A DNA stretch of 64,000 nt. Origin: Alphaproteobacteria bacterium (GTDB lineage: Bacteria > Pseudomonadota > Alphaproteobacteria > Ferrovibrionales > Ferrovibrionaceae). The notes beneath the pieces are model-generated. The model saw nothing but the letters and a program-made list of their open reading frames with translations, had not been told where the DNA came from and ran no database searches. Every line of letters starts with the position of its first letter. Position 1 is the stretch's first letter. The DNA lies in NCBI GenBank assembly GCA_026126165.1, contig JAHCJR010000003.1, positions 1 through 64,000 on the forward strand, in the 5' to 3' direction. Below, one piece after another: positions 19,253-31,669 of this stretch. The position numbers and the translations under genes are program-made.

Positions 19253-19362
19253 TTGCGGATCCCTGGCGGAGTGAGGTGCTGATCGAGGAGGAGCGCGGTA
19301 GTCAAGGCATGCACTACTACTTTACAACTACCATTTTGTCTGTTGCGCTTCTTTACGTCACG

Positions 19363-19368
19363 TATAAT
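19363..19368 (+). promoter_or_regulatory. Candidate -10 element of the dppA-dppB transcript
   Basis: A perfect TATAAT lies 52 bases before the binding-protein ATG. No good -35 match is found at 17 bases; TTGCGC at 19343 is only 14 bases away. A short inverted repeat GTAGT/ACTAC at 19298-19317 lies upstream in the same divergent intergenic region and might bind a regulator. Confidence 0.35.
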
Positions 19369-19420
19369 CTTGTTCCAATGCCATCATAAATTACCAATAA
19401 CAGGGGAAAGGAATACGGAG

Positions 19421-21025
19421 ATGGGCAGGACGAAATCTGTATTTCGCGGCGTGCTTCTGGGCTCGGTTTCGGCGCTGTTCCTCGTTCACGCGGCTGCGAC
19501 GCCTGCCTCGGGGGAGAGCGTGCTGCGCGCGTCCATGCATGCGGATGTCAGGACGCTCGATCCGCACTGGACGACACAGACCATTGCCGGCATTCACGGC
19601 ATGCTGGTCTACGACACCCTGTTCGGCGTCGACGACGAACTGGTCCCGAAGCCGCAGATGGTGGGCGACTACAAGATCAGCGACGACCGCAAGACATATA
19701 CTTTCACCCTGCGCGAAGGGCTGAAGTTCCATGACGGGACGCCGGTCACGACCAACGACGTGATCGCCTCGCTCAAGCGCTGGGGCGCCAAGGACCAGGC
19801 GGCGCGCGCCATGATGGGTTACGTGAGCGCGCTGGAGAAGGTGGACGAACGCACCTTCCGCATGGTCCTGACCGAGCCTTACGGACTTGTGCTCGACACG
19901 CTCGGCAAGACCGGCACGATGGTTCCGATCATCATGCGCGAGAAGGATGCGAAGACCGAGGGCAACGCGCAGGTGACCGAGGCAATCGGGTCCGGCCCCT
20001 TCCGGATGCTGAAGGAGCAATGGGTTCCCGGCAGCAAGACGGTCTATGTCAAGAACGCGGATTACGTGCCGCGCAAGGAGGCGCCGTCCGGCTTCTCCGG
20101 CGCCAAGGTGCCCAGGGTTGATCGCATCGAGCTGCTGTGGATTGCCGATGCGCAGACGCGCATGCAGGCGCTGATCGCTGGCGAGATCGATTTCCTGGAA
20201 CAGCCATCCGTCGACTTCGTGCCGATTCTCGAGCAGACGCCGAACGTCAAGGTGATACGCACCGGCTCGGTGGACAGTCACTGGGGAACCATTCGCATCA
20301 ATCATCTGCATCCCCCGTTCGACAAGCCGGAGGCACGGCAGGCGCTCTATCACCTGGTCAAGCAGGAGGATTTCCTGCAGACCATCGTCGGAAATCCGCA
20401 GTATTACCGGGTCTGCTACAGCTTCATCACCTGCGGCACGGCCTATGCCGACGAGACCGGAAAGGAACAGGTCGGAGACTACAATCCGAAGAAGGCGCTC
20501 GAGAAGCTGAAGGCGGCCGGTTACAAGAACGAGCCGATTTCCGTGCTCGCGGCGACGGATCACCATACGATCACGCCGGCCTCCCAGGTTCTTCTGGCCA
20601 GCATGCGGGCGGCCGGGATCAACGTCGATGCGGTTTCCATCGACTGGGGTTCGGTGGTGGCGCGGCGGGCCAAGCGCGAGAAGCCGGAAGCTGGCGGCTG
20701 GAACATCTTCGTCACCACGTCGTCCGGCGTTTCCTCGCTGAATCCGGCTCTCAACACCTGGCTCGGCGCAGGGTGCGAGAAGGCCAATGTCGGCTGGCCA
20801 TGCGATGAGGAACTCGACCGGCTGCGTGCCCAGTTCGCCTTCGCCGGAAGCGTCGAGGAGCGCAAGCAGATCGCGAGGAAGATCCAGGAACGCGCCGTGC
20901 ATGTGGTGCCCTACATCATCTTCGGTCAGTGGACGCAGCCGCTCGCTTACCGCTCGGACAAGATCGACGGCATCGTTCCGGTGACCGGCACCACGGTGTT
21001 CTGGAACATCGCGAAGAAGGGCTGA
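19421..21025 (+). CDS. dppA: Peptide/solute ABC transporter substrate-binding protein (SBP_bac_5, DppA type)
   Basis: A 534-residue periplasmic binding protein. ATG 19421 is chosen because it begins a good signal peptide (MGRTKSVFRG, hydrophobic core, cleavage near ASGES) with GGAG just upstream; the frame extends 26 codons further but that part has no signal character. Family features include ASMHADVRTLDPHWTT, the LREGLKFHDGTPVTTNDV motif and a typical C-terminal IVPYIIFGQ region. It starts the rightward half of the transporter: permease DppB follows after a strong hairpin. Substrate probably a peptide or peptide-like compound, by context with the M81 peptidases. Confidence 0.92.
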   Translation: MGRTKSVFRGVLLGSVSALFLVHAAATPASGESVLRASMHADVRTLDPHWTTQTIAGIHGMLVYDTLFGVDDELVPKPQMVGDYKISDDRKTYTFTLREGLKFHDGTPVTTNDVIASLKRWGAKDQAARAMMGYVSALEKVDERTFRMVLTEPYGLVLDTLGKTGTMVPIIMREKDAKTEGNAQVTEAIGSGPFRMLKEQWVPGSKTVYVKNADYVPRKEAPSGFSGAKVPRVDRIELLWIADAQTRMQALIAGEIDFLEQPSVDFVPILEQTPNVKVIRTGSVDSHWGTIRINHLHPPFDKPEARQALYHLVKQEDFLQTIVGNPQYYRVCYSFITCGTAYADETGKEQVGDYNPKKALEKLKAAGYKNEPISVLAATDHHTITPASQVLLASMRAAGINVDAVSIDWGSVVARRAKREKPEAGGWNIFVTTSSGVSSLNPALNTWLGAGCEKANVGWPCDEELDRLRAQFAFAGSVEERKQIARKIQERAVHVVPYIIFGQWTQPLAYRSDKIDGIVPVTGTTVFWNIAKKG

Positions 21026-21061
21026 CCTTCCTCGCGCGATCCCTGTTGACGATCCGTCACC

Positions 21062-21087
21062 GCGGCGGCCGCCTTCGCGGCCGCCGC
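21062..21087 (+). terminator. Strong hairpin between dppA and dppB
   Basis: An 11-base perfect inverted repeat (GCGGCGGCCGC, loop CTTC, then its complement) lies 36 bases after the binding-protein stop. There is no T-run, so it more likely protects or attenuates the upstream mRNA than terminates fully. This is a common way to keep a binding protein in excess over its permease. Confidence 0.5.
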
Positions 21088-21107
21088 CCTTCGCTCCGGA
21101 GACCGGC

Positions 21108-22049
21108 ATGGGCGCCTATATAGTCCGGCGGCTGCTGGCCACCTTTCCGGTCATGGCGGTGGTGGCAGTGTTCGTATTCCTCCTGCTGCGGCTCGCGCCG
21201 GGTGATCCGGCCGCGCTGATTGCGGGAGACGACGCCACCAGCGCGGATATCGATGCGATCCGCGCCAAGCTCGGGCTCGACCTGCCGATCTGGGAGCAGT
21301 TCGTCCTGTGGATCGCCGATATCCTGCGCGGCGACCTCGGCGTCTCGATCTTTTCAAACCTGCCGGTCACGGTCCTGATCGGCCAGCGGCTAGAACCCAC
21401 GCTCATGCTGATGCTGGCAACCCTGTTCGTGGCGGTGACGCTGGCGATTCCGCTTGGCGTCCTCGCCGCATGGAAGGCTCGGACGGCGATCGACCGGATA
21501 GTCATGGTCTTTTCCGTTCTCGGCTTTGCGGTACCCGTATTCCTGGCTGGCTATGTGCTGATCTATGTGTTTTCGATCCAGCTCCGCTGGCTGCCAGTCC
21601 AGGGTTATCGCCCGCTCGCCCAGGGGCTCTGGCCCTGCTTGCAGGGCCTCATCCTGCCGGCGATCGCGCTCGGGACAACCTACATGGCGCTGATCGCCCG
21701 GATCACCCGCGCCTCCATGCTCGAAGTGCTGGCGCAGGACTATATCCGCACCGCGAATGCGAAAGGGTTGGCGACACGGCGGGTTCTGCTGCTGCATGCG
21801 CTCAAGAACGCATCTGTCCCGATTGTGACTGTAATTGGCATCGGCATTGCCCTGCTGATTTCCGGCGTCGTGATCACGGAGACGGTGTTCAACATTCCCG
21901 GCCTAGGCCGCCTTACGGTCGATGCGGTGCTCAAGCGGGATTACCCGATCGTGCAGGGCCTGATCCTGGTGTTCGCCGGGGTGAAGGTTCTGATAAACCT
22001 GATGATCGATCTCTCCTATGTCTTTCTCGATCCGCGCATCCGCTACTGA
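21108..22049 (+). CDS. dppB: Dipeptide/oligopeptide ABC transporter permease (DppB/OppB type)
   Basis: A 313-residue inner-membrane permease with six hydrophobic helices and the OppB-type N-terminus (YIVRRLLATFPVM, then LRLAPGDPAALIAG). The EAA docking loop is YIRTANAKGLATRRVLLLHALKNA. It is the missing partner of the DppC-type permease encoded on the other strand at 15217-16089; no second ATPase or DppC gene lies on this strand. The ATG at 21108 follows GGAGACCGGC. A weak inverted repeat (AACAGT/ACTGTT, 22076-22095) lies after its stop and may mark the transcript end. Confidence 0.93.
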   Translation: MGAYIVRRLLATFPVMAVVAVFVFLLLRLAPGDPAALIAGDDATSADIDAIRAKLGLDLPIWEQFVLWIADILRGDLGVSIFSNLPVTVLIGQRLEPTLMLMLATLFVAVTLAIPLGVLAAWKARTAIDRIVMVFSVLGFAVPVFLAGYVLIYVFSIQLRWLPVQGYRPLAQGLWPCLQGLILPAIALGTTYMALIARITRASMLEVLAQDYIRTANAKGLATRRVLLLHALKNASVPIVTVIGIGIALLISGVVITETVFNIPGLGRLTVDAVLKRDYPIVQGLILVFAGVKVLINLMIDLSYVFLDPRIRY

Positions 22050-22159
22050 TCGCTCTCGGGGCTGAGCCCTGTGTTAACAGTTTGTAGAGACTGTTCTCCC
22101 TAACCTTGCCGGAGAGGAATATCACAGGCGCTGGGCATGCTTGCCCGAGCGGGGCAGCC

Positions 22160-24412
22160 GTGTCGAAAAACCCCATCGAGCCGGATACGACGAGCGAGCC
22201 CGGAATGCGAGCGACCGGCACGGCCGGCGGTGCCAGGCAGTTGCGACTAAGGCTGAGCTTCCGCGCTTCCATCATGGCGGTATCGCTGGTGACGATCCTC
22301 GTCACTTCGGCTGCCGTCCACTTTCCCTGGCATTTCACCTCGCGCGAGAACAACGCCCAGATCGTCGGCACGCTCAACCAGACCATTCTCGATGGAATCC
22401 GGCGCGAGATCGACGAGCTGTTCCGGTCCACGGAGGTGGCGCAGCAGACCGTGCTCGAACTGCTCGAGAAGGACATCGTGCGCATCGAGGACAGGGAACG
22501 ACGCGAGCAGATGATGTTCGGCTTCCTGCGGGCGAACCGGCATTTCTCCTGGGTCAGCTTCGGGCGGCCAGATGGAAACTTCTACGGGGCGCAGCGTCGC
22601 GACGAGGACAATTTCCGGCTGGTCGAGAGTATCTGGAGCGCCGACCGGGCCGAGGCGACACGGACGGAGGCTTACTATGCAAGCGATGGCGAAGGCATAT
22701 TCGCCACGCAGACCAAAGTGAAGACGAACGACTATTTCGCACCGGGCCGCGAATGGTACCGGCTGGCGGTGGACAGCGCCGGCCAGCATGTCTGGACGGA
22801 TGTCTATGTTTTTGCATCCAGCGGCAAGCCCGGCATCAATTCCGCCATCACGTTCGATCGCGACGGCGAACTGGTCGGGGTCGTCAGCATCGCCATCGAG
22901 CTGGACCGCATCTCCACCTATCTGCGCGAACTGCGGATCGCCGAAGGGGGCCAGGCCTTCATCGTCAACCGGGAAGGGGAGATCATCGCCTTTAGCGACC
23001 CGGCCGAGGTGACCACGGCCAGTGGCACCGAATACCGTTTCCTCCGCAAGCTCGGCGAATCCTGGAATCCAGTCCTGCGCATCGCCAATCTCGCCATTAA
23101 GGGTTCCGGCATCGACCTGAACGGTGTTTCGGCGCCCGTGCAGGCGATCCAGGTCGGACCGGAGGACCACGAGCGCTACTTCGTCACCATGGCGCCGGCA
23201 GGCAGGCGGGACTGGCTGATCGGGACGGTCATTCCGGAACGCGATTTCATGACCGGCATCGAACGCAATCAGGAGCGCCTACTCTATACCATACTTGCCG
23301 CAGTGGTCCTGGTGGTCCTGGTCGCGGCGGGCGTCTCGCGCTGGCTCTTCATCCATCCGATCACGCGGATGATCCGCCAGAGCGCGCGCATCAGGCGTTT
23401 CGATACGGGCTCCATAGAGCCGGTCCCTTCGCTGATCTCCGAACTCGAGGGTCTGTCGGCTGCTCAAGTGAGCATGGCGCAGGGACTTGAATCCTTCCGT
23501 CGCTACCTTCCGGCGGACCTGCTGCAGACGCTGATGGAACAGGGCGTGGCGGCCGAGGTGGGCGGCGAGCGCCGCACAATGACCGTGCTCTTCATGGATC
23601 TCGCCAACTTCACGACCTTGACCGAGCGCATGGGTCATCGCATCCTGCCCATGCTTGGCGACTATCTCGGCGCCATGTCGAAGGGCCTCATCGCCCATCG
23701 GGCGACGATCGACAAGTTCATCGGCGACGCGGTCATGGCTTTCTGGGGCGCTCCGCGGTTCAACGAGGAGCATCCGACCGATGCCTGCCGCGCCGCGCTC
23801 GACTGTCAGCGCCGCATGGCGGAACTCAAGGCCCGCTGGCGAGGCATGGGCCTGCCGGAGCTCGATGTGCGCATCGGCATCAATACCGGCCGGGTGGTAG
23901 TGGGGAATATCGGCTCGGCCGAACGGCTCGATTACACGGTGATCGGCGATCCGGTCAATCTGGCGAGCCGCCTGGAAGGTCTCAACAAGCTCTACGGCAC
24001 GGGTATCATCATCGGACAATCGACTTACGAGCTGGCGAAATACGATATCGTCGCCCGGCGCCTCGACTACGTGAATGTCAAGGGCAAGGATGAGACCATC
24101 GCCGTGTATGAACTGTTGGAGATGGCGGATGGACCGATGGAACGGCCATCCGTGGACTGGATCCGCGCCTATGAGGAGGGGCTCGAGTTCTACCGGGGCG
24201 GCGAATACGAGCGGGCGCAGCACTGTTTCCGGCGCGCCATCGACCTTCGCGGCGGCGATGCGCCTGCTGCGCGCTATGTGGATTTGTGCGCGCAGAAACT
24301 CATGCGCGCCGCCCGTCCCCGGCGGCCATCGGCCGGGCGCCGATCCGCCACCGGCGCGACGCCAATTCCCTTGCCCTCGCCGCGCGAGACGCGGCGCGGC
24401 GGCGCGGACTGA
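22160..24412 (+). CDS. Membrane adenylate/guanylate cyclase with extracytoplasmic Cache sensor
   Basis: About 750 residues (from GTG 22160; a TTG at 22106 or ATG at 22205 are alternatives). Order: short cytoplasmic N-terminus, transmembrane helix near 36-55, a large double-Cache-like periplasmic sensor (about 75-365, with REWYRLAVD and WTDVYVFASSG), a second helix near 373-397, a HAMP-like linker, and a class III cyclase domain (about 465-645). Metal aspartates are D480 (LFMDLANF) and D523 (FIGDAVMAFWG); YTVIGDPVNLASRLEG carries Thr at the base-recognition site, as in class IIIb adenylate cyclases. A C-terminal TPR-like helical tail follows. It should make cAMP in response to a periplasmic ligand. 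It converges on the next operon with a 36-base gap. Confidence 0.9.
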   Translation: MSKNPIEPDTTSEPGMRATGTAGGARQLRLRLSFRASIMAVSLVTILVTSAAVHFPWHFTSRENNAQIVGTLNQTILDGIRREIDELFRSTEVAQQTVLELLEKDIVRIEDRERREQMMFGFLRANRHFSWVSFGRPDGNFYGAQRRDEDNFRLVESIWSADRAEATRTEAYYASDGEGIFATQTKVKTNDYFAPGREWYRLAVDSAGQHVWTDVYVFASSGKPGINSAITFDRDGELVGVVSIAIELDRISTYLRELRIAEGGQAFIVNREGEIIAFSDPAEVTTASGTEYRFLRKLGESWNPVLRIANLAIKGSGIDLNGVSAPVQAIQVGPEDHERYFVTMAPAGRRDWLIGTVIPERDFMTGIERNQERLLYTILAAVVLVVLVAAGVSRWLFIHPITRMIRQSARIRRFDTGSIEPVPSLISELEGLSAAQVSMAQGLESFRRYLPADLLQTLMEQGVAAEVGGERRTMTVLFMDLANFTTLTERMGHRILPMLGDYLGAMSKGLIAHRATIDKFIGDAVMAFWGAPRFNEEHPTDACRAALDCQRRMAELKARWRGMGLPELDVRIGINTGRVVVGNIGSAERLDYTVIGDPVNLASRLEGLNKLYGTGIIIGQSTYELAKYDIVARRLDYVNVKGKDETIAVYELLEMADGPMERPSVDWIRAYEEGLEFYRGGEYERAQHCFRRAIDLRGGDAPAARYVDLCAQKLMRAARPRRPSAGRRSATGATPIPLPSPRETRRGGAD

Positions 24413-24448
24413 TCTATCGTTTGGCGTCGGTGACGGGCGGCTGGCGGT

Positions 24449-25624
24449 TCAACGGGCCGCTGCCTGGAGCGGCAGGATGCGCTTGCCGCCCTGCCGGACG
24501 AGCCGGCCCTCCGGGTCGATCACCGTTCCGGCCCGCTCGAAGAAATCGAAAGGAATCTTGAGGCCGATGGCGCGGGCGCGCTCGAAGCTGATGGCGATGT
24601 CCGGCGGCGTGACGATGCCGACCGGCAGTTCGCCGGGCCGCGCTGTTCCGTCCAGAACATGGCCGGCATAGACGGCGGCGAGATAGGCGTTGCTCTCGAA
24701 GCTCACGCCGATGGAAATGACCGCACTATCCTTCCCCGGCTGAACAATGTCCGGAACGGCGCTCAGGACCGGGAGACGGCCTGCTGCCTGGTTGATGACG
24801 GCAATCTCCTGGAATACCGAGGTGCTGCCGGTGATCCAGAGGGCGCTGTGCGCGAGAGCGGGGTCGGTTTCGCGCATGCGCTCGAGCGCCGCCGGGATCA
24901 GTTCGCGCAATTCGCGGCTGGCCTGCTCGGGGTCGCGAACCGCAACCTCGATGGCACGCAGCCCCTCGCGCTCCGCCGCCGCGATCAGCGGCCGGGACTG
25001 GGTCTGCACGGCACTCTGATTGTCGGCATCGACGAGCACGGCGAGCGCGCGCAGGCCGGGCATGAGCTTGCGGATATAGGCAAGCTGCACATCGACCGAC
25101 ATGTTGAGGGAGGTGAAGGCGAAGTTGGTCTGCGAGCCCTTCTCGTAGTGCGCGATCTGCCCCAGCTCCACGGGGTCCTTGGCACAGACGCTGAGCACGG
25201 GTATCGCACCGCCGCGATAGTGCGCGTGAAGCCAGGCGACGCTGTCGGATCCCATCGCGAGGATAAGATCGGCTGCGATCGTCTCCGCCCGGGCGAGGGC
25301 CGCGCGGCCGCGATGATCCCGCCGCTTGAAGTTGAAGGCCTCGAAGATGATATTGTCGCCGCGCTGGCGGAAGTATTCGAGCATGCGCGACATTGCCGTG
25401 TCGTAGGCGCTCGACTGACGGGGGTAGAGGACGAGCACGCTTCTCGCGGGCGCGCGCCCTGCATTGACCGGCTGAATGCGTACCCGTCGGTCGTCCAGTT
25501 CCGTCGCGATCCAGTTTCGCGCCGCTTCCTCGCTCAGCGCGAACCAGTCGCTGACCGGCAGCATCTCGGCGCGAAGCGGGCCGGCGAGCAGAAGGATGGC
25601 GAACAGCGCGAGGATCGGCCTCAT
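24449..25624 (-). CDS. ABC-type substrate-binding protein (ABC_sub_bind/DUF534-like), without its own transporter
   Basis: A 391-residue exported protein starting at ATG 25624, which begins a signal peptide (MRPILALFAILLLAGPLRAE) and overlaps the upstream MFS-fusion stop as ATGA. The body has two Rossmann-like halves: SVLVLYPRQSSAYDTAMSRM, ADLILAMGSDSVAW, VLSVCAKDPVELG, then VLVDADNQSAVQTQS and a C-terminal TPPDIAISFERARAIGLKIP. This resembles the periplasmic TrpX-like binding proteins. No ABC permease or ATPase is near, so it may feed ligand to the MFS fusion or act as a sensor. Translational coupling makes joint function likely. It is the last gene of the operon. Confidence 0.75.
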   Translation of the reverse strand: MRPILALFAILLLAGPLRAEMLPVSDWFALSEEAARNWIATELDDRRVRIQPVNAGRAPARSVLVLYPRQSSAYDTAMSRMLEYFRQRGDNIIFEAFNFKRRDHRGRAALARAETIAADLILAMGSDSVAWLHAHYRGGAIPVLSVCAKDPVELGQIAHYEKGSQTNFAFTSLNMSVDVQLAYIRKLMPGLRALAVLVDADNQSAVQTQSRPLIAAAEREGLRAIEVAVRDPEQASRELRELIPAALERMRETDPALAHSALWITGSTSVFQEIAVINQAAGRLPVLSAVPDIVQPGKDSAVISIGVSFESNAYLAAVYAGHVLDGTARPGELPVGIVTPPDIAISFERARAIGLKIPFDFFERAGTVIDPEGRLVRQGGKRILPLQAAAR

Positions 25625-27978
25625 GCGGCCACCGGGACCGGCCGCGCGTTGCGTTCCGGCGTCGAGAAGAGCAAGGTGAGGATGGCGAGGCCGGCGGCGA
25701 CCCATAGGAAGGCGGTGCCAGTCGTGCCGGAAAGCATGAGCGCCTGGCCGGCGACCAGCGGGCCGGCGATATGGCCGGTGCGCTCCAGCAGTCGATAGCT
25801 TGCCGTCACGCGGGCCTCGCCGATACGGGCGGCGAGGCTGCCATTGGCCACGTGGCTCACGATCGGGGCGTTGATGCAGCCATGGGCGATTCCGGTGGCG
25901 AAACTAGCCAGCGCCGCGCCGGCCATGGCGATGGACGCCCCGTTGCCGCCATTTGTGCCGTACATGATCGCTGCCGCCAGGCCGACAAGACCTAGTGCGG
26001 AGAGCGCGCCGCCGGCCAGGACGACCGGCTTGGGGCGCCCGAGCCGATCGCAGAGGCGCGCGGCCGGTCCGGTGCAGAGCAGTACGCCCAGGGCATAGAG
26101 CATGATGATCTGCCCGATATCGTCCTGCGCGAAGCCCGCGCTGCCGAGCATGATCGGCAGTGCGAATACGATGCAGCCGGTCATGACCATCTTGGCGGGA
26201 ATTCCGGCTGCGAGCATGGCCTTGAGGAAATCGGCATCGGTCAGGATCGTGCCCAGCTCGCGCCAGGTGCCCCGGCGGCGGATCGTCGATGGCGTGGCCA
26301 TGACCAGTCGCGGGAAACGAACGAAGATCAGGAACGCCAGCCCCGCGGCGATCGCCAGGGCGATATGAATGACCCCGTCTGGTCCGAGATAGACCACAAG
26401 GAGCGAGCCGATCGCCACTCCGGAGATCATGCCGCCCTGGAACCCGGTGACGATCACCGATGCGGCGGCGGCTTTCCGTCCGATTCCGGCCTCGTTCAGC
26501 AGGGCTTGCTGCACGGCAATGAAGATGAAGCCCTGGCCAAGGCCGGCGGCCAGACGTGCCGTCAGCACCAGCGCGAGCCGTTCCTGCGCGAGCGCGAGCA
26601 GGAGGAAACTCGCGAGGATCGCAGCGGCGCCGGCCAGCATGACCGGCCGCGCGCCGAGCCGCGCGGTGAGCGAGGATGCGGGCATGAGGCTGAGCGCGAA
26701 CATGAGAAAGTAGGACATGAACAGCAGCGAGACCGCATGACCGCCGAGCCCGGCCACCTGCGCGATGTTCTGCAGGACCCCGGGAAGGAACGGGTAGATC
26801 ATGTGCTCGATGAAGACGGCGCCGAAGAAAACCGGGTGAATGACCGAAGCGGCCGCGGTCCCGTCGCGTGCCGGAGGTCCTTCGCGCCCGTCGCGGGCGG
26901 TTGCGGCAAGCTGGAGAAAGACCGCCGCCAGGAGTGCCGACGCGACGAAGAGCGCGGCGAAACTTCTGATCCCGCGCAGGAGCTGCGACCAGACCGCATC
27001 GGCCGGCAGGACGACGAAGGCCCGGGAATGGCCCAGCGGATCGATGGCGCGACCATGCTCGAAGCTCCAGCGCTGGTCGCGCCAGGGCTGGCCGGCCTGG
27101 CCGGGGTCGCTGTGGATCACGGCGATGCCGTCGACCACGAGCGCGGCAGCGGCGATGTCCGGGTTGTTCCGGCGATATTCGGCGAAGGTCTGGTCCAGGC
27201 CGGTCACGTCGGCGGTCGTGAGGCCAAGTTCGATCAGGCTGGCCAGCCGATGCCCAAGCGACGCACCGAGCGCCCGTGCCTTCGCCTGCACGCCGTCGGC
27301 GTAAAGCTGGATCATGGTGGCCAGCACCGCCGCCGCCATCGCGCAGAAGAACGCGGCGAGGACTACCTGCCGCAACCTTGCGGGCGCTACATTCCATCTG
27401 CGAGCCAGGATGGCGCAGGCGAACGGAAAGGCACAGGCCAGCAGGATGGCGAGCGGCAGTAGTGGCGCGAAGGCCCGGTCGATGTCCGCGCGCAGGCGGG
27501 ATTCGGGCATCGAGACGATGATCTCGCCCACCGTCTCGAAGCGATTGTGCAGCGGGCGCGCCACCTGCAGATGTCCTGCGCCGCGCCGTGCATCGATCGT
27601 ATTGGGCTGCCGCGCGCTCCTGGCGCCGTCGGCTGGTATCGCCGCGAGATCGGCGGGGCCGACGGCGAAAACCTGCCTGCCGGTCCGATCCAGGACCAGG
27701 ATTCCCTCGATCGTTTCGTCGGATTCGAGGATGCTCCGGGCAATGGTATCGAAGCCGGCGAACTGCTCCAGCGGTAGCCCGGCCTGGACGTGCGGGTCCA
27801 TGGCGCCGGCAAGCAACTCGCCCTGGGCGGCCAGCTTCTCGAACTGGAAGCGTGGCTGGACGCGGGAGACCTCGCTCCAGCCGATATACAGCAGCAACAG
27901 GAGCGAGGCAGCGGCGACGCAAGCGAGGATCGGAAAGCCGGCAATGCCGGCATGGATCGCACTCCGAAGGCTGGTCAA
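25621..27978 (-). CDS. MFS transporter fused to N-terminal extracytoplasmic sensor domains
   Basis: A 785-residue protein, nearly twice the usual MFS length. Order: helix 13-33; a periplasmic domain about 34-170 with Cache/PAS-like strands (EGILVLDRTGRQVFAVG, then VARPLHNRFETVGEIIVSMPES); two helices near 172-192 and 204-226; a second periplasmic domain 227-338 (AAAALVVDGIAVIHSDPG); a helix near 339-358; and a 12-helix MFS transporter from about 380 to the end with the loop-like RLGARP and DRLGRPKP motifs. The start is TTG 27978, overlapping the ATP-grasp stop as TTGA, preceded by GGAG. A ligand-gated transporter or transceptor is a reasonable inference. The fusion is continuous, with no sign of frameshift. 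Confidence 0.82.
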   Translation of the reverse strand: MTSLRSAIHAGIAGFPILACVAAASLLLLLYIGWSEVSRVQPRFQFEKLAAQGELLAGAMDPHVQAGLPLEQFAGFDTIARSILESDETIEGILVLDRTGRQVFAVGPADLAAIPADGARSARQPNTIDARRGAGHLQVARPLHNRFETVGEIIVSMPESRLRADIDRAFAPLLPLAILLACAFPFACAILARRWNVAPARLRQVVLAAFFCAMAAAVLATMIQLYADGVQAKARALGASLGHRLASLIELGLTTADVTGLDQTFAEYRRNNPDIAAAALVVDGIAVIHSDPGQAGQPWRDQRWSFEHGRAIDPLGHSRAFVVLPADAVWSQLLRGIRSFAALFVASALLAAVFLQLAATARDGREGPPARDGTAAASVIHPVFFGAVFIEHMIYPFLPGVLQNIAQVAGLGGHAVSLLFMSYFLMFALSLMPASSLTARLGARPVMLAGAAAILASFLLLALAQERLALVLTARLAAGLGQGFIFIAVQQALLNEAGIGRKAAAASVIVTGFQGGMISGVAIGSLLVVYLGPDGVIHIALAIAAGLAFLIFVRFPRLVMATPSTIRRRGTWRELGTILTDADFLKAMLAAGIPAKMVMTGCIVFALPIMLGSAGFAQDDIGQIIMLYALGVLLCTGPAARLCDRLGRPKPVVLAGGALSALGLVGLAAAIMYGTNGGNGASIAMAGAALASFATGIAHGCINAPIVSHVANGSLAARIGEARVTASYRLLERTGHIAGPLVAGQALMLSGTTGTAFLWVAAGLAILTLLFSTPERNARPVPVAA

Positions 27979-29204
27979 TTCGCTCCGCTCCCCGCGTCGG
28001 CCAGCGCAGGCAGGCGCCCGGCTGCGTCCGGACGCATGGCCAGGAGTTCATGTAGCCGGCTGGCCAGGATGGAGAGGATCAGGTCGTCGTAGCTCATGCC
28101 CTGCTCGTCGAGGCCGAGCGCGACCAGGTTGGTCGAATTGCCGTCGGGAACCTTGAGGTCCGGTTTGGGATTCGCTTCGAGGATATGCAGCTTGCCCTGC
28201 TCGTCGGCGCGCAGGTCTATACGGACGATCGTTTCCAGGTTGAAATCGAGATAGACGTGCCGGGCGAGCCGGCAGAGCCTGCGGCGCAGGAGCGCGTCCT
28301 GCGGCAGCGCGGCATCCAGCAGGCGTACCCGATCCGGCGTGATGGCGCGGTGATCCATCGAGGCGAAGATCGCCTCGCCGGGATCGAGAAGCCGTTCGGT
28401 CGGCGAAAGAACGAACGGCGTGCGTGACCAGAAGAGTTCCCCTTCACGGGCGACGACGGGGCCCATGACCGCGATGCAGAATTCGCGGCCGGGCAGGAAT
28501 CGCTCGATCAGGACCAGGTTGCGGCAGCTCGCCGCCACCTGGTCGACGGTCGCCCCCAGATCCTCCGTGGTCTCTGCCGTGTGAATGTTGAGCGATGCGC
28601 GGCCGGTCACCGGCTTGACGACGAACGGACCGTGATAGTCGCGGAAGGTTGCCCGGAAGCGCGAGTTCATCGCCGGCAAAAACCGGCCCCGATCGGGGTT
28701 CCAGACCATGAACTCCGCCGTCGGATATCCCAGTGCGACCAGTTCGCGCTTGAAGGCGTGCTTGTTGTCGAGCAGCGCCGCGTTGAGCGGATTGTGCCCG
28801 ACATAAGGCATGCCAAGCATCTCCAGCAGGGCGGGGGCATGGCAGACCGGGCTTAACCCCTGCAGCCCGCCGGTATTGAGCCAGACCAGATCGATATGCT
28901 CGCGCCGCAGCCGCTCCGGCAGCCGCATGTCCTCCGGCAGCGTCAGCGCCGCGCGCACACCGATCCGTCGCAAGGCGCCGGCAAGATCTTCGGCGACGGC
29001 AGCATAGCTCTTCCAGGATCTGGTCAGGCGGCCGGCATGGAGGACGGCTCCCGCCTCCGCGCGATCCCCGCCATGGACGACCGCGATGCGCAGCCGGGCA
29101 ATGGTCTGCGCGATCCGCTCGTGCCACTCCCTCGCCGGAAAGGGCTGGAGCCGGCGCATCTGGCGATCAGGAGATGGCCGTTGCAGATTGGCCGACTGGG
29201 ACAT
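27975..29204 (-). CDS. ATP-grasp ligase, D-alanine-D-alanine ligase-like
   Basis: A 409-residue cytosolic enzyme. A preATP-grasp domain (about 38-150, with LVWLNTGGLQG and YVGHNPLNAALLDNKH) precedes an ATP-grasp domain (about 165-395) with ATP-binding strands GPFVVKPVTG and LIERFLPGREFCIAVMG and the magnesium-site motif ILEANPKPDL. It is not a housekeeping Ddl: no mur or fts genes are near, and it is coupled by TTGA to the MFS fusion. Ligases of this type join a carboxylate to an amine at the cost of ATP, so it may build or modify a small peptide-like molecule that the MFS protein exports or senses. Product unknown. Confidence 0.8.
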   Translation of the reverse strand: MSQSANLQRPSPDRQMRRLQPFPAREWHERIAQTIARLRIAVVHGGDRAEAGAVLHAGRLTRSWKSYAAVAEDLAGALRRIGVRAALTLPEDMRLPERLRREHIDLVWLNTGGLQGLSPVCHAPALLEMLGMPYVGHNPLNAALLDNKHAFKRELVALGYPTAEFMVWNPDRGRFLPAMNSRFRATFRDYHGPFVVKPVTGRASLNIHTAETTEDLGATVDQVAASCRNLVLIERFLPGREFCIAVMGPVVAREGELFWSRTPFVLSPTERLLDPGEAIFASMDHRAITPDRVRLLDAALPQDALLRRRLCRLARHVYLDFNLETIVRIDLRADEQGKLHILEANPKPDLKVPDGNSTNLVALGLDEQGMSYDDLILSILASRLHELLAMRPDAAGRLPALADAGSGAN

Positions 29205-29305
29205 CCGGTTCCCTCGGTGCGATGCCGTGCATACAGGTTCGGGCAGGCCCGAACGGGCATTGTGGCGACCAAGGGTTTACACTCTGTTAGCCTCGCCGGC
29301 GGCGG

Positions 29306-31669
29306 TCACTTCTCCTTCAGGGTCCATACCCCGTCCCAGTCGGCGGGTGGGGGATGCTGCAGGCAATGGCTGCAGCGATCGACATAGATCGCGGCGACCC
29401 GGTCCGACTGGTTCAGCGCGAGCGCCTCCCGAAAGGCCGCACCGGCATCCCGCCATTGGCGCGCGCGATAGAGGTCGAGGCCGTGGGCGAAGCAGCGAAG
29501 GGCCGGTATCAGGTTGGGGAAGGTCTCCTCGGTATGATATCCGAGCGCTTCGTAGATCGTGGTCGGACGGCTCTTGCCCTTGACGCGGATCAGGTCGACC
29601 TCGCGAACGATGCCGGGCGCGCGGGCATTCACCAGGGTTTCGCCCGCCAGGAGGACCGACGTGCCGAAGTATTTGTTGGCGCCTTCCAGTCGTGCCGCGA
29701 GGTTGACGCTGTCGCCGATCACCGTGTAATCCATGCGCTTCATCGAGCCGATGGAACCGGCAAGGACCGGACCCGTAGCCAGTCCGATGCCGATCTCGAT
29801 CGCGGGCTGTCCCTCGGCCGCGCGCCGGGCGTTCAGGCGGCGCAATGCCCGCATCATCTCGTTGGCGACCGCCAGCGCATTGTCCGCGTCGGCGGCGCTC
29901 GCGATCGGCGCGCCGAAAGTCGCCATGATCGCATCGCCGATATACTTGTCGAGAATGCCGCCATGGCGAAACACGACCTCGACCATGTCGGAGAAGTATT
30001 CGTTCAGCATGCGCACGGTCTCGCGTGCCGTCATGCCTTCCACCAGGCTGGTGAATCTGCGGATGTCGGAGAAGAGCACCGTCGCGAGTTGGGAGGTGCC
30101 TTCCGTGACGCTTTCCCCCTCCGCGAGCAGGCGGTCTACGACCTCCTTTGCCATATACCGGGACATGGTGGAGCGGACGCGCTTCTCGCGGGTGATATCC
30201 TCGAAAACCAGCATATAGCCGATCACGGTGCCCTGCAGATCCCTGAGCGAGGTTGCAGTGAGATTGACCGAGGCCCGGGCACCGCCGGGCAGGATCAGGT
30301 CGGTATCGGCGGAAAAGTCACTCTCGCCGCTCTTCATCACTCGCTCGAGGCTGCGCATGATCCAGGGATTGATTTCCCCGAACACCTCTTCCGCCGGACG
30401 GCCTTCGATCCCGTCGCCGGTCAGGCGGAGCAGGCGCGCCGCGCTCTCGTTGACCTTGACCACGCGGCAGTTCCTGTCGAGCGTGAGAACGCCGTTGGTC
30501 AGCGATTTGAGGACACTTTCATTGTAGTTTTTCAGCTCAAGAACATCGGTAAAGAGTCGCGCGTTGGCGATGGCAATGGCGATCTGCGCGGAGAAGGCCT
30601 TCAGCCGGCGCACGCAGTGCGGCGTAAAGGGACCATCGCGCCGGTTGAGCACCTGCATGACGCCGATTTTGTCCCCAGCCTTGTCGCGCACCGGCAGGCA
30701 GAGAATGCTTCTGGTGCGGAATCCGGACCGCCGGTCGACGTGCTGGTTGAAACGGGGATCCAGGTAGGCATCGGCGATGTTCTCCACTTCGCCGCTGCGG
30801 AAGGCACTGCCGGCGATGCCCGTGCCGGCCGGCATGCGGATCTCCGCCAGGGCGGTTCCTCCGCCGGTCGCTACCTTGGACCAGAGTTCGTCTCGCACCG
30901 GATCGTGCAGGAACAGCGTGGCGCGCTCCGCATCGAGCAGTTCGGTGGTCGCCTGCACGATGCGACCGAGCAGGGTATCAAGTTGCAGGTCGGAGGAAAT
31001 CGCCTCGCTGATTTCCAGAAGCTGTGCTTCTTCCCGACGTGCCCGTTCCAGGCTTTCGTAGAGCCGCGCATGCTCCAGCGCCGCCGCAGCCTGGGCGGCG
31101 ATCGCTTCGAGCATGGCGCGGTCGGCCTGATCGAAGGTTCGCGACTGGCGGTTCAGGGCCTGCGCGACGCCGACGACGCGGGATGCGGGATCCTTGACCG
31201 GCACGCAGAGGATGTCGCGGGTGCGGAAACCGGAGCGGCGGTCGACCTCCGTATTGAACCGCGGATCGGCGTATGCGTCGGGAACGATTTCGGATTGCCC
31301 GGAACGAAATACCGCGCCTGCGATTCCGGCGCCGGCCGGTATGCGGATTTCCTCGATCCGCGTGCCGGCCATGACACGGGAGAAAAGCTCGTCCGATTCA
31401 GGGTCGTGCAGAAACAGGCTCGCCGTCTCGGCTTCCATGACCTCGGCGATCAATGCGACCATGCGCGGCAGCATGGTATCCAGGGGCAGGGTGGCTGGAA
31501 TCGTATTGACCACCTGCACCAATTGCGAGAGGCGCCGGATCGTCGATGCCGCACGCTCCGCCATCTCCGCGCCGCCGGATGCAAGCCCCTCGGCCAGTTG
31601 CCGCGCCTCTGCCGCATCCAGGCCGCGCGCGAACGCCAGATCGACAAGTTGCTCCGGAGATTTCGGCAT
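29306..31669 (-). CDS. GAF-GAF-PAS adenylate cyclase
   Basis: A soluble 787-residue signalling enzyme. Order: helical N-terminus (1-50), GAF1 (about 60-205), GAF2 (about 225-375), PAS (about 385-500), class III cyclase (about 520-710) and a TPR-like C-terminal tail ending near DWDGVWTLKEK. The GAF domains are close duplicates; both contain VDRRSGFRTR followed by ILC(V/L)PV(K/R)D. Metal aspartates are D535 (LFSDIRRF) and D579 (KYIGDAIMATFG); YTVIGDSVNLAARLEG indicates class IIIb. It should make cAMP under control of small cytosolic ligands or redox state. It heads the leftward operon; TAGAAT (plus-strand 31687-31692) is a possible -10. A 100-base gap separates it from the ATP-grasp gene. Confidence 0.9.
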   Translation of the reverse strand: MPKSPEQLVDLAFARGLDAAEARQLAEGLASGGAEMAERAASTIRRLSQLVQVVNTIPATLPLDTMLPRMVALIAEVMEAETASLFLHDPESDELFSRVMAGTRIEEIRIPAGAGIAGAVFRSGQSEIVPDAYADPRFNTEVDRRSGFRTRDILCVPVKDPASRVVGVAQALNRQSRTFDQADRAMLEAIAAQAAAALEHARLYESLERARREEAQLLEISEAISSDLQLDTLLGRIVQATTELLDAERATLFLHDPVRDELWSKVATGGGTALAEIRMPAGTGIAGSAFRSGEVENIADAYLDPRFNQHVDRRSGFRTRSILCLPVRDKAGDKIGVMQVLNRRDGPFTPHCVRRLKAFSAQIAIAIANARLFTDVLELKNYNESVLKSLTNGVLTLDRNCRVVKVNESAARLLRLTGDGIEGRPAEEVFGEINPWIMRSLERVMKSGESDFSADTDLILPGGARASVNLTATSLRDLQGTVIGYMLVFEDITREKRVRSTMSRYMAKEVVDRLLAEGESVTEGTSQLATVLFSDIRRFTSLVEGMTARETVRMLNEYFSDMVEVVFRHGGILDKYIGDAIMATFGAPIASAADADNALAVANEMMRALRRLNARRAAEGQPAIEIGIGLATGPVLAGSIGSMKRMDYTVIGDSVNLAARLEGANKYFGTSVLLAGETLVNARAPGIVREVDLIRVKGKSRPTTIYEALGYHTEETFPNLIPALRCFAHGLDLYRARQWRDAGAAFREALALNQSDRVAAIYVDRCSHCLQHPPPADWDGVWTLKEK

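Follow-up and report, generated by a model that had tools for sequence, protein, structure and literature searches.

Five neighbouring genes on an alphaproteobacterial contig raise the question of whether a ligase, a transporter and a binding protein form one signalling unit, and what the adenylate cyclases on either side have to do with it. The locus lies in a window of 64,000 nucleotides, which is the whole stretch of DNA analysed here (contig JAHCJR010000003.1, Ferrovibrionaceae). The source assembly is a draft genome of 161 contigs that is 81% complete. The five genes are:

22106-24412, forward strand: A, Cache cyclase, a membrane dCache-class III adenylate cyclase (Pfam dCache_1 and Guanylate_cyc)
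24449-25624, reverse strand: B, orphan solute-binding protein (TrpX/PF04392-like) with a signal peptide, cassette gene 3 (NCBIfam TrpX, PDB 6hni)
25621-27978, reverse strand: C, two Cache-like domains and a 12-TM MFS transporter, cassette gene 2 (Pfam MFS_1, AlphaFold model)
27975-29204, reverse strand: D, ATP-grasp ligase, a relative of D-Ala-D-Ala ligase, cassette gene 1 (Pfam Dala_Dala_lig_C, PDB 4zqi)
29306-31669, reverse strand: E, GAF-GAF-PAS adenylate cyclase (Pfam two GAF, PAS_4 and Guanylate_cyc)

The layout was read again from the sequence. The D/C overlap is exactly TTGA and the C/B overlap exactly ATGA. A and B are convergent with their stops exactly 36 bases apart, and E lies 101 bases upstream of D. 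The genes, strands, overlaps and 36-base gap are all as the initial annotation had given them. The families that it had named were confirmed by Pfam domains for A, C, D and E. B, which it had called a binding protein, has no Pfam match, yet it matches the NCBIfam TrpX substrate-binding family (1.4e-9) and PDB 6hni (1.4e-12). The two sensors that it had seen in C carry no Pfam name; their predicted fold matches Cache/PDC sensor domains. The start of B was set within a longer open reading frame, and a signal peptide was thereby gained. A promoter and terminator scan of the locus gave the same counts as in shuffled sequences. Directly upstream of A and on the same strand (window 19343-22049) are a binding-protein gene and one permease gene, taken by eye to be of the DppA and DppB types, with no second permease or ATPase genes visible. 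They are preceded by two genes that we assume, also by eye, to be MlrC-like.

The conservation of D, C and B was followed across genomes. A first search with C among 96 relatives returned full-length homologues in several families, and in all eight strong full-length matches, the window itself excluded, D stands ahead of C and B after it. For the census, an alignment of C was searched against 84,980 species genomes, which gave 58 loci. These loci were then scanned with D, C and B profiles derived from relatives of the window, and 48 of them contain all three genes. The order D-C-B is kept in 47 of the 48 complete loci, the lone exception being C-B-D in Bosea (L086). Every complete locus lies on one strand, and the junctions mostly overlap or are shorter than 60 bases. 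D is lacking despite sufficient flank at L061, L088 and L103. The first two are second copies in genomes that also carry D-C-B, and L103 comes from a cyanobacterial MAG.

Co-occurrence was measured in 289 evenly sampled alphaproteobacterial genomes, with an E cut-off below 1e-60 for C. C was found in 10 genomes and D in 10, and both were present and adjacent in 9 (hypergeometric p 2.9e-15). The exceptions are G170, which has two D genes without C, both at contig ends, and G242, in which C is divergent. Outside Alphaproteobacteria, the D search found one of 196 Clostridia, and the C search found two of 194 genomes of the cyanobacterial phylum and five of 274 Gammaproteobacteria; D-C-B also occurs on six Vibrio plasmids. 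This rare and patchy distribution suggests horizontal transfer. The adjacency of D, C and B is far beyond chance. It had been anticipated that the three genes would stay adjacent in distant genomes, and this was decisively borne out by 47 of the 48 complete loci, which come from several phyla; scattering in relatives was not observed.

Some copies are altered. In G242, the divergent sensor-MFS gene (L118) is accompanied by a good B, a SpoIIE phosphatase lying between them, and a HATPase_c_2 protein, without D. In a Devosia MAG (L073:3923-5332) an in-frame stop divides B, and in three genomes outside Alphaproteobacteria (G770, G970 and G122) the matched part of C contains 1-3 stop codons. These stops may reflect decay, an error of assembly or the ends of stretches.

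Both cyclases have the motifs expected for their family, read from sequence as DLANFT, DKFIGDAV and DYTVIGDPVNLASR in A and as DIRRFT, DKYIGDAI and DYTVIGDSVNLAAR in E. The source genome contains 19 class III cyclase matches, so a cyclase neighbour alone is weak evidence. The neighbours were compared across loci. By domain calls, a signalling enzyme lies at or near the cassette edge in about 43 of the 58 loci; no partner was recognised in about 14, in several of them owing to contig ends. Of 112 cassette sides, 44 have an output gene within 1 kb, whereas at distances of 3-8 kb the figure is 0-2% per kilobase; the domain queries were partly seeded from cassette neighbours, which favours detection and not position. 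A cyclase of the A type adjoins the cassette in several genera and in Gammaproteobacteria, and the dCache-cyclase partner was found in the window, Ferrovibrio, Oceanibacterium, Aquibium, an Acidiferrobacteraceae MAG and a near relative of that MAG. At L101 the partner is a dCache-histidine kinase. A (GAF-)PAS-PAS-histidine kinase with response regulators is the partner mostly in Kiloniellales and their relatives, and a (GAF-)PAS-PAS-GGDEF-EAL protein mostly in Hyphomicrobiales. At L105 and L123 the dCache domain is joined to a channel domain; the match of the channel half to GLIC is marginal (E 0.006), and a Pro-loop-like pattern is present. In our judgement the cassette is very probably a genuine functional unit with ties to signal transduction.

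The two cyclases of the window differ in their conservation. A full-length homologue of E adjoins the cassette only in the genus of the window, and the two-cyclase arrangement is likewise limited to that genus. E as a core member is thus unsupported; it is a lineage-specific neighbour whose membership of the cassette is unproven. The initial annotation had let both cyclases report the signal as cAMP. That part of the claim may hold for A, which adjoins the cassette, but cAMP is one of at least four outputs and E is lineage-specific. As a defining output cAMP was ruled out, because the partner in most relatives is a kinase or a GGDEF-EAL protein.

The receivers were then compared between partners with different outputs. 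Residues 15-425 of the L101 kinase and residues 43-454 of A are 40.6% identical over 414 aa. Residues 61-485 of the L060 kinase and residues 1-422 of the L075 GGDEF-EAL protein are 39.7% identical. A quick tree, in which some branches are weak, was drawn from the joined cassette sequences. It implies one change of receiver type and seven or more changes of output type, four of the latter inside the GAF-PAS-PAS group. The receiver halves are homologous across outputs, and the output halves have been swapped. This is the pattern expected of a cassette whose signal goes to the receiver, with the output half open to exchange.

D matches Pfam Dala_Dala_lig_C (9.7e-13) and the Ddl of PDB 4zqi (3e-19). 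The ATP-grasp catalytic core is present, with the ATP lysine, the Arg-x-Asp and the Glu-x-Asn metal ligands; aligned to 4zqi, residues K197, R328, D330, E343 and N345 are invariant in 43 homologues. The substrate-facing N-terminus is unlike Ddl in the same alignment. The score of D against the curated Ddl family TIGR01205 is 66.5 bits, below the cut-off of 245.65, and D misses every NCBIfam Ddl cut-off. The genuine Ddl is another gene elsewhere in the source genome (288.7 bits), and D as the housekeeping Ddl was ruled out on both grounds. From its conserved residues, D is taken as a probably active carboxylate-amine (or hydroxy-acid) ligase. The source genome (G000) also has two adjacent further Ddl-like ATP-grasp genes on contig C77:35914-37697, which are unrelated to the D locus.

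C matches Pfam MFS_1 (5e-22), and its AlphaFold model, built from 45 homologues, has a pLDDT of 83.7. The top Foldseek matches of the MFS half include NorA, MdfA and VMAT, together with other MFS proteins such as FLVCR and sialin; profile matches are 3wdo and NorA. In the model, the MFS fold is closest to drug and monoamine exporters. Residues 1-364 were modelled separately (pLDDT 87), and they match the sensor domains of WalK, PacA, McpU, KinD and DctB with E from 1e-5 to 1e-2 and modest TM-scores. The two Cache-like domains (about residues 30-160 and 220-330) are predicted to be extracytoplasmic, between TM helices. For B, no paralogue was found in the source genome at E <= 1e-5, and no cognate permease or ATPase genes of a TrpXYZ-type ABC importer recur within the cassette neighbourhoods of the 58 loci.

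Distant homologues of the sensor-MFS protein were found in 22 of the 289 alphaproteobacterial genomes, some members of the main group included. These sister clusters contain a PF04392 binding protein and mostly a SpoIIE phosphatase or a cyclase. A GCS2-type ligase is found at L045, L046, L167 and L168; its start overlaps the MFS stop as ATGA at L045, L167 and L168 and it is adjacent at L046. A DdaF-like ATP-grasp protein is found at L159 and L161, and two Ddl-like ligases at L165. In about half of the sister loci no ligase could be recognised. That amide ligases of different kinds have repeatedly joined the transporter-binding-protein pair is the strongest hint of ligand synthesis by the ligase. 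A protein of about 247 aa without a Pfam match (L159:9782-10525) recurs in the sister clusters L161, L051, L160 and L166; our guess is that it may be an acyltransferase.

Contractile weapons are found near some copies. On the Vibrio plasmids, D-C-B is embedded among type VI secretion genes, with tssH on one side and the FHA/tssJ genes on the other. On two of them (L174 and L175) an extra substrate-binding-domain gene directly follows B. In the clostridium Pseudobacteroides cellulosolvens (L105:5916-21299), where the partner is the Cache-ion-channel-like protein, the cassette is beside eCIS_core (DUF4157), an AAA ATPase, a DUF4280/PAAR-like gene and a cyclase-like gene. VgrG/TssH or Hcp-like genes adjoin the sister loci L046 and L047; the names Hcp and VgrG are our assignments by eye. 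No Tss genes were found in the 58 loci or the window, so the weapons link is a derived use and not the definition of the cassette. Type VI secretion as a general context was ruled out, with Tss matches confined to the Vibrio plasmids and to L046 and L047. The eCIS was ruled out in the same role: of 31 genomes with the cassette, 3 have PF14065, and Pseudobacteroides is the only one in which it lies close by.

The best explanation is that D-C-B is a mobile signalling-input cassette. D would join a carboxylate to an amine to form a small peptide-like molecule. C would export this product, gated by its own two Cache domains, and B would bind it outside the membrane and present it to the partner receptor. 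In the window, the dCache adenylate cyclase A would convert the presented ligand into cAMP; in other lineages the cassette would drive a histidine kinase, a c-di-GMP enzyme or an ion channel. The ligand may act between cells. The GAF-PAS-PAS partners are cytosolic, so with them an external ligand must act via C or re-enter the cell. The proposal that a peptide-like molecule is made, moved and reported persists as the best-supported model, of which we infer the synthesis, the export direction and the presentation of the ligand. Cassette conservation, partner adjacency and the conserved receiver with swapped outputs argue for it, as do the invariant ligase core and the predicted exporter-like MFS and Cache-like sensor folds. 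The cytosolic nature of the GAF-PAS-PAS partners, the D-less copies (L061, L088 and L103), the sister loci without a recognisable ligase and the loci without a recognised partner argue against it, and the MFS of C could equally be an importer. For the full model, with synthesis of a small amide by D, its export by C and its presentation to the receptor by B, we consider the case evenly balanced.

Other explanations were weighed against this model. Ordinary linkage would mean three unrelated housekeeping genes with cyclases adjacent by chance, and the 19 cyclase matches do make the genome cyclase-rich. For D-C-B it is refuted by the order and strand kept over several phyla, by the co-occurrence of C and D and by the enrichment of output partners near the cassette, while for E it may still apply; as an account of the whole locus it is scarcely credible. 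A different view dispenses with a self-made signal: an outside amino-acid-like or peptide-like compound would be captured by B, imported or sensed by C and modified inside by D, and the partner would report its presence. B belongs to a nutrient-type family, the fold-matched Cache domains of PctA, Mlp24 and McpU bind amino acids and amines, and both the cytosolic GAF-PAS-PAS partners and the existence of D-less copies suit an imported ligand. The closest solved MFS folds to C are mostly exporters, however, catabolic genes were not seen to recur beside the cassette, and the differing amide ligases that recur in sister clusters suggest synthesis. Sensing of an environmental compound is possible but unlikely.

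A role in self-protection, in the manner of Van or Bce systems, would have D modify a cell-wall precursor or a toxic compound and C expel it, with B and the partner receptor as sensors of the stress. D is related to the Ddl/Van ligases, although its N-terminal substrate region is unlike Ddl. The fold of C is closest to drug efflux pumps, and some genomes have contractile weapons close to the cassette or its sisters; no recurring VanX/VanH-like or biosynthetic cluster was seen, however, and the outputs are c-di-GMP, cAMP and ion channels, not a dedicated resistance regulator. We consider resistance quite improbable.

A broader proposal built on the signalling-input cassette is tentative. The cassette and its sisters may represent an undescribed but widespread kind of signalling, autocrine or between cells. 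Exchangeable amide ligases (ATP-grasp Ddl-like, DdaF-like, GCS2-like) would produce the signal, the Cache-MFS "transceptor" would export and monitor it, and the binding protein would present it. The readout would be cAMP, c-di-GMP, phosphorelay, SpoIIE partner switching or ion flux, with wiring to contractile injection systems on the Vibrio plasmids and in the clostridium. If the cassette model is right, a single portable input module has been connected to at least four output chemistries with the receiver unchanged, which would be a natural experiment in the rewiring of bacterial receptors. The cassette would also open a route to a new family of small, peptide-like signals whose synthase gene is already known. 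Several of the carriers are cultured and suited to laboratory work, with Methylobacterium, Bosea, Ferrovibrio and Oceanibacterium hippocampi as non-pathogenic examples, so ligand discovery is directly testable.

No description of the combination was found in the mainly open-access literature searched. Each gene family, the receptors coupled to solute-binding proteins and the synthase-exporter-receptor logic are already known; the D-C-B cassette looks undescribed. Among ATP-grasp amide ligases, Ddl, DdaF and BacD have the ATP-grasp core and the Mg/ATP residues in common with D; Ddl has an NTxPG motif, whereas D has a C-terminal NPKPD instead. LuxP/LuxQ, NspS/MbaA and ChvE/VirA are solute-binding-protein-coupled receptors. 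As in those systems, where a periplasmic binding protein stands beside a membrane sensor with a kinase or c-di-GMP output, A and its counterparts flank B or D, so that a binding-protein gene is next to a receptor with a signalling output. The stimulation of receptors by such proteins is described in PMC9602780. Those systems differ in having no ligase-transporter pair in the unit, another binding-protein family and one output type each, whereas the cassette has several outputs and a double-Cache MFS. Cache-channel fusions have been described among the dCache prokaryotic pentameric ligand-gated ion channels (PMC549065); the fusion and a nearby binding-protein gene are shared with the partners at L105 and L123, and a neighbouring ATP-grasp or other ligase, which the cassette has in D, is not mentioned there. 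DHA1-type MFS exporters (NorA, MdfA, VMAT) share the 12-TM fold predicted for C, and only C has two extracytoplasmic Cache-like domains ahead of the transporter. In quorum-sensing cassettes, an enzyme makes a small molecule, a transporter exports it and a receptor reports it. By analogy, the same logic is proposed for D-C-B and its partner, with the difference that the ligase here is of the ATP-grasp type and not a known autoinducer synthase.
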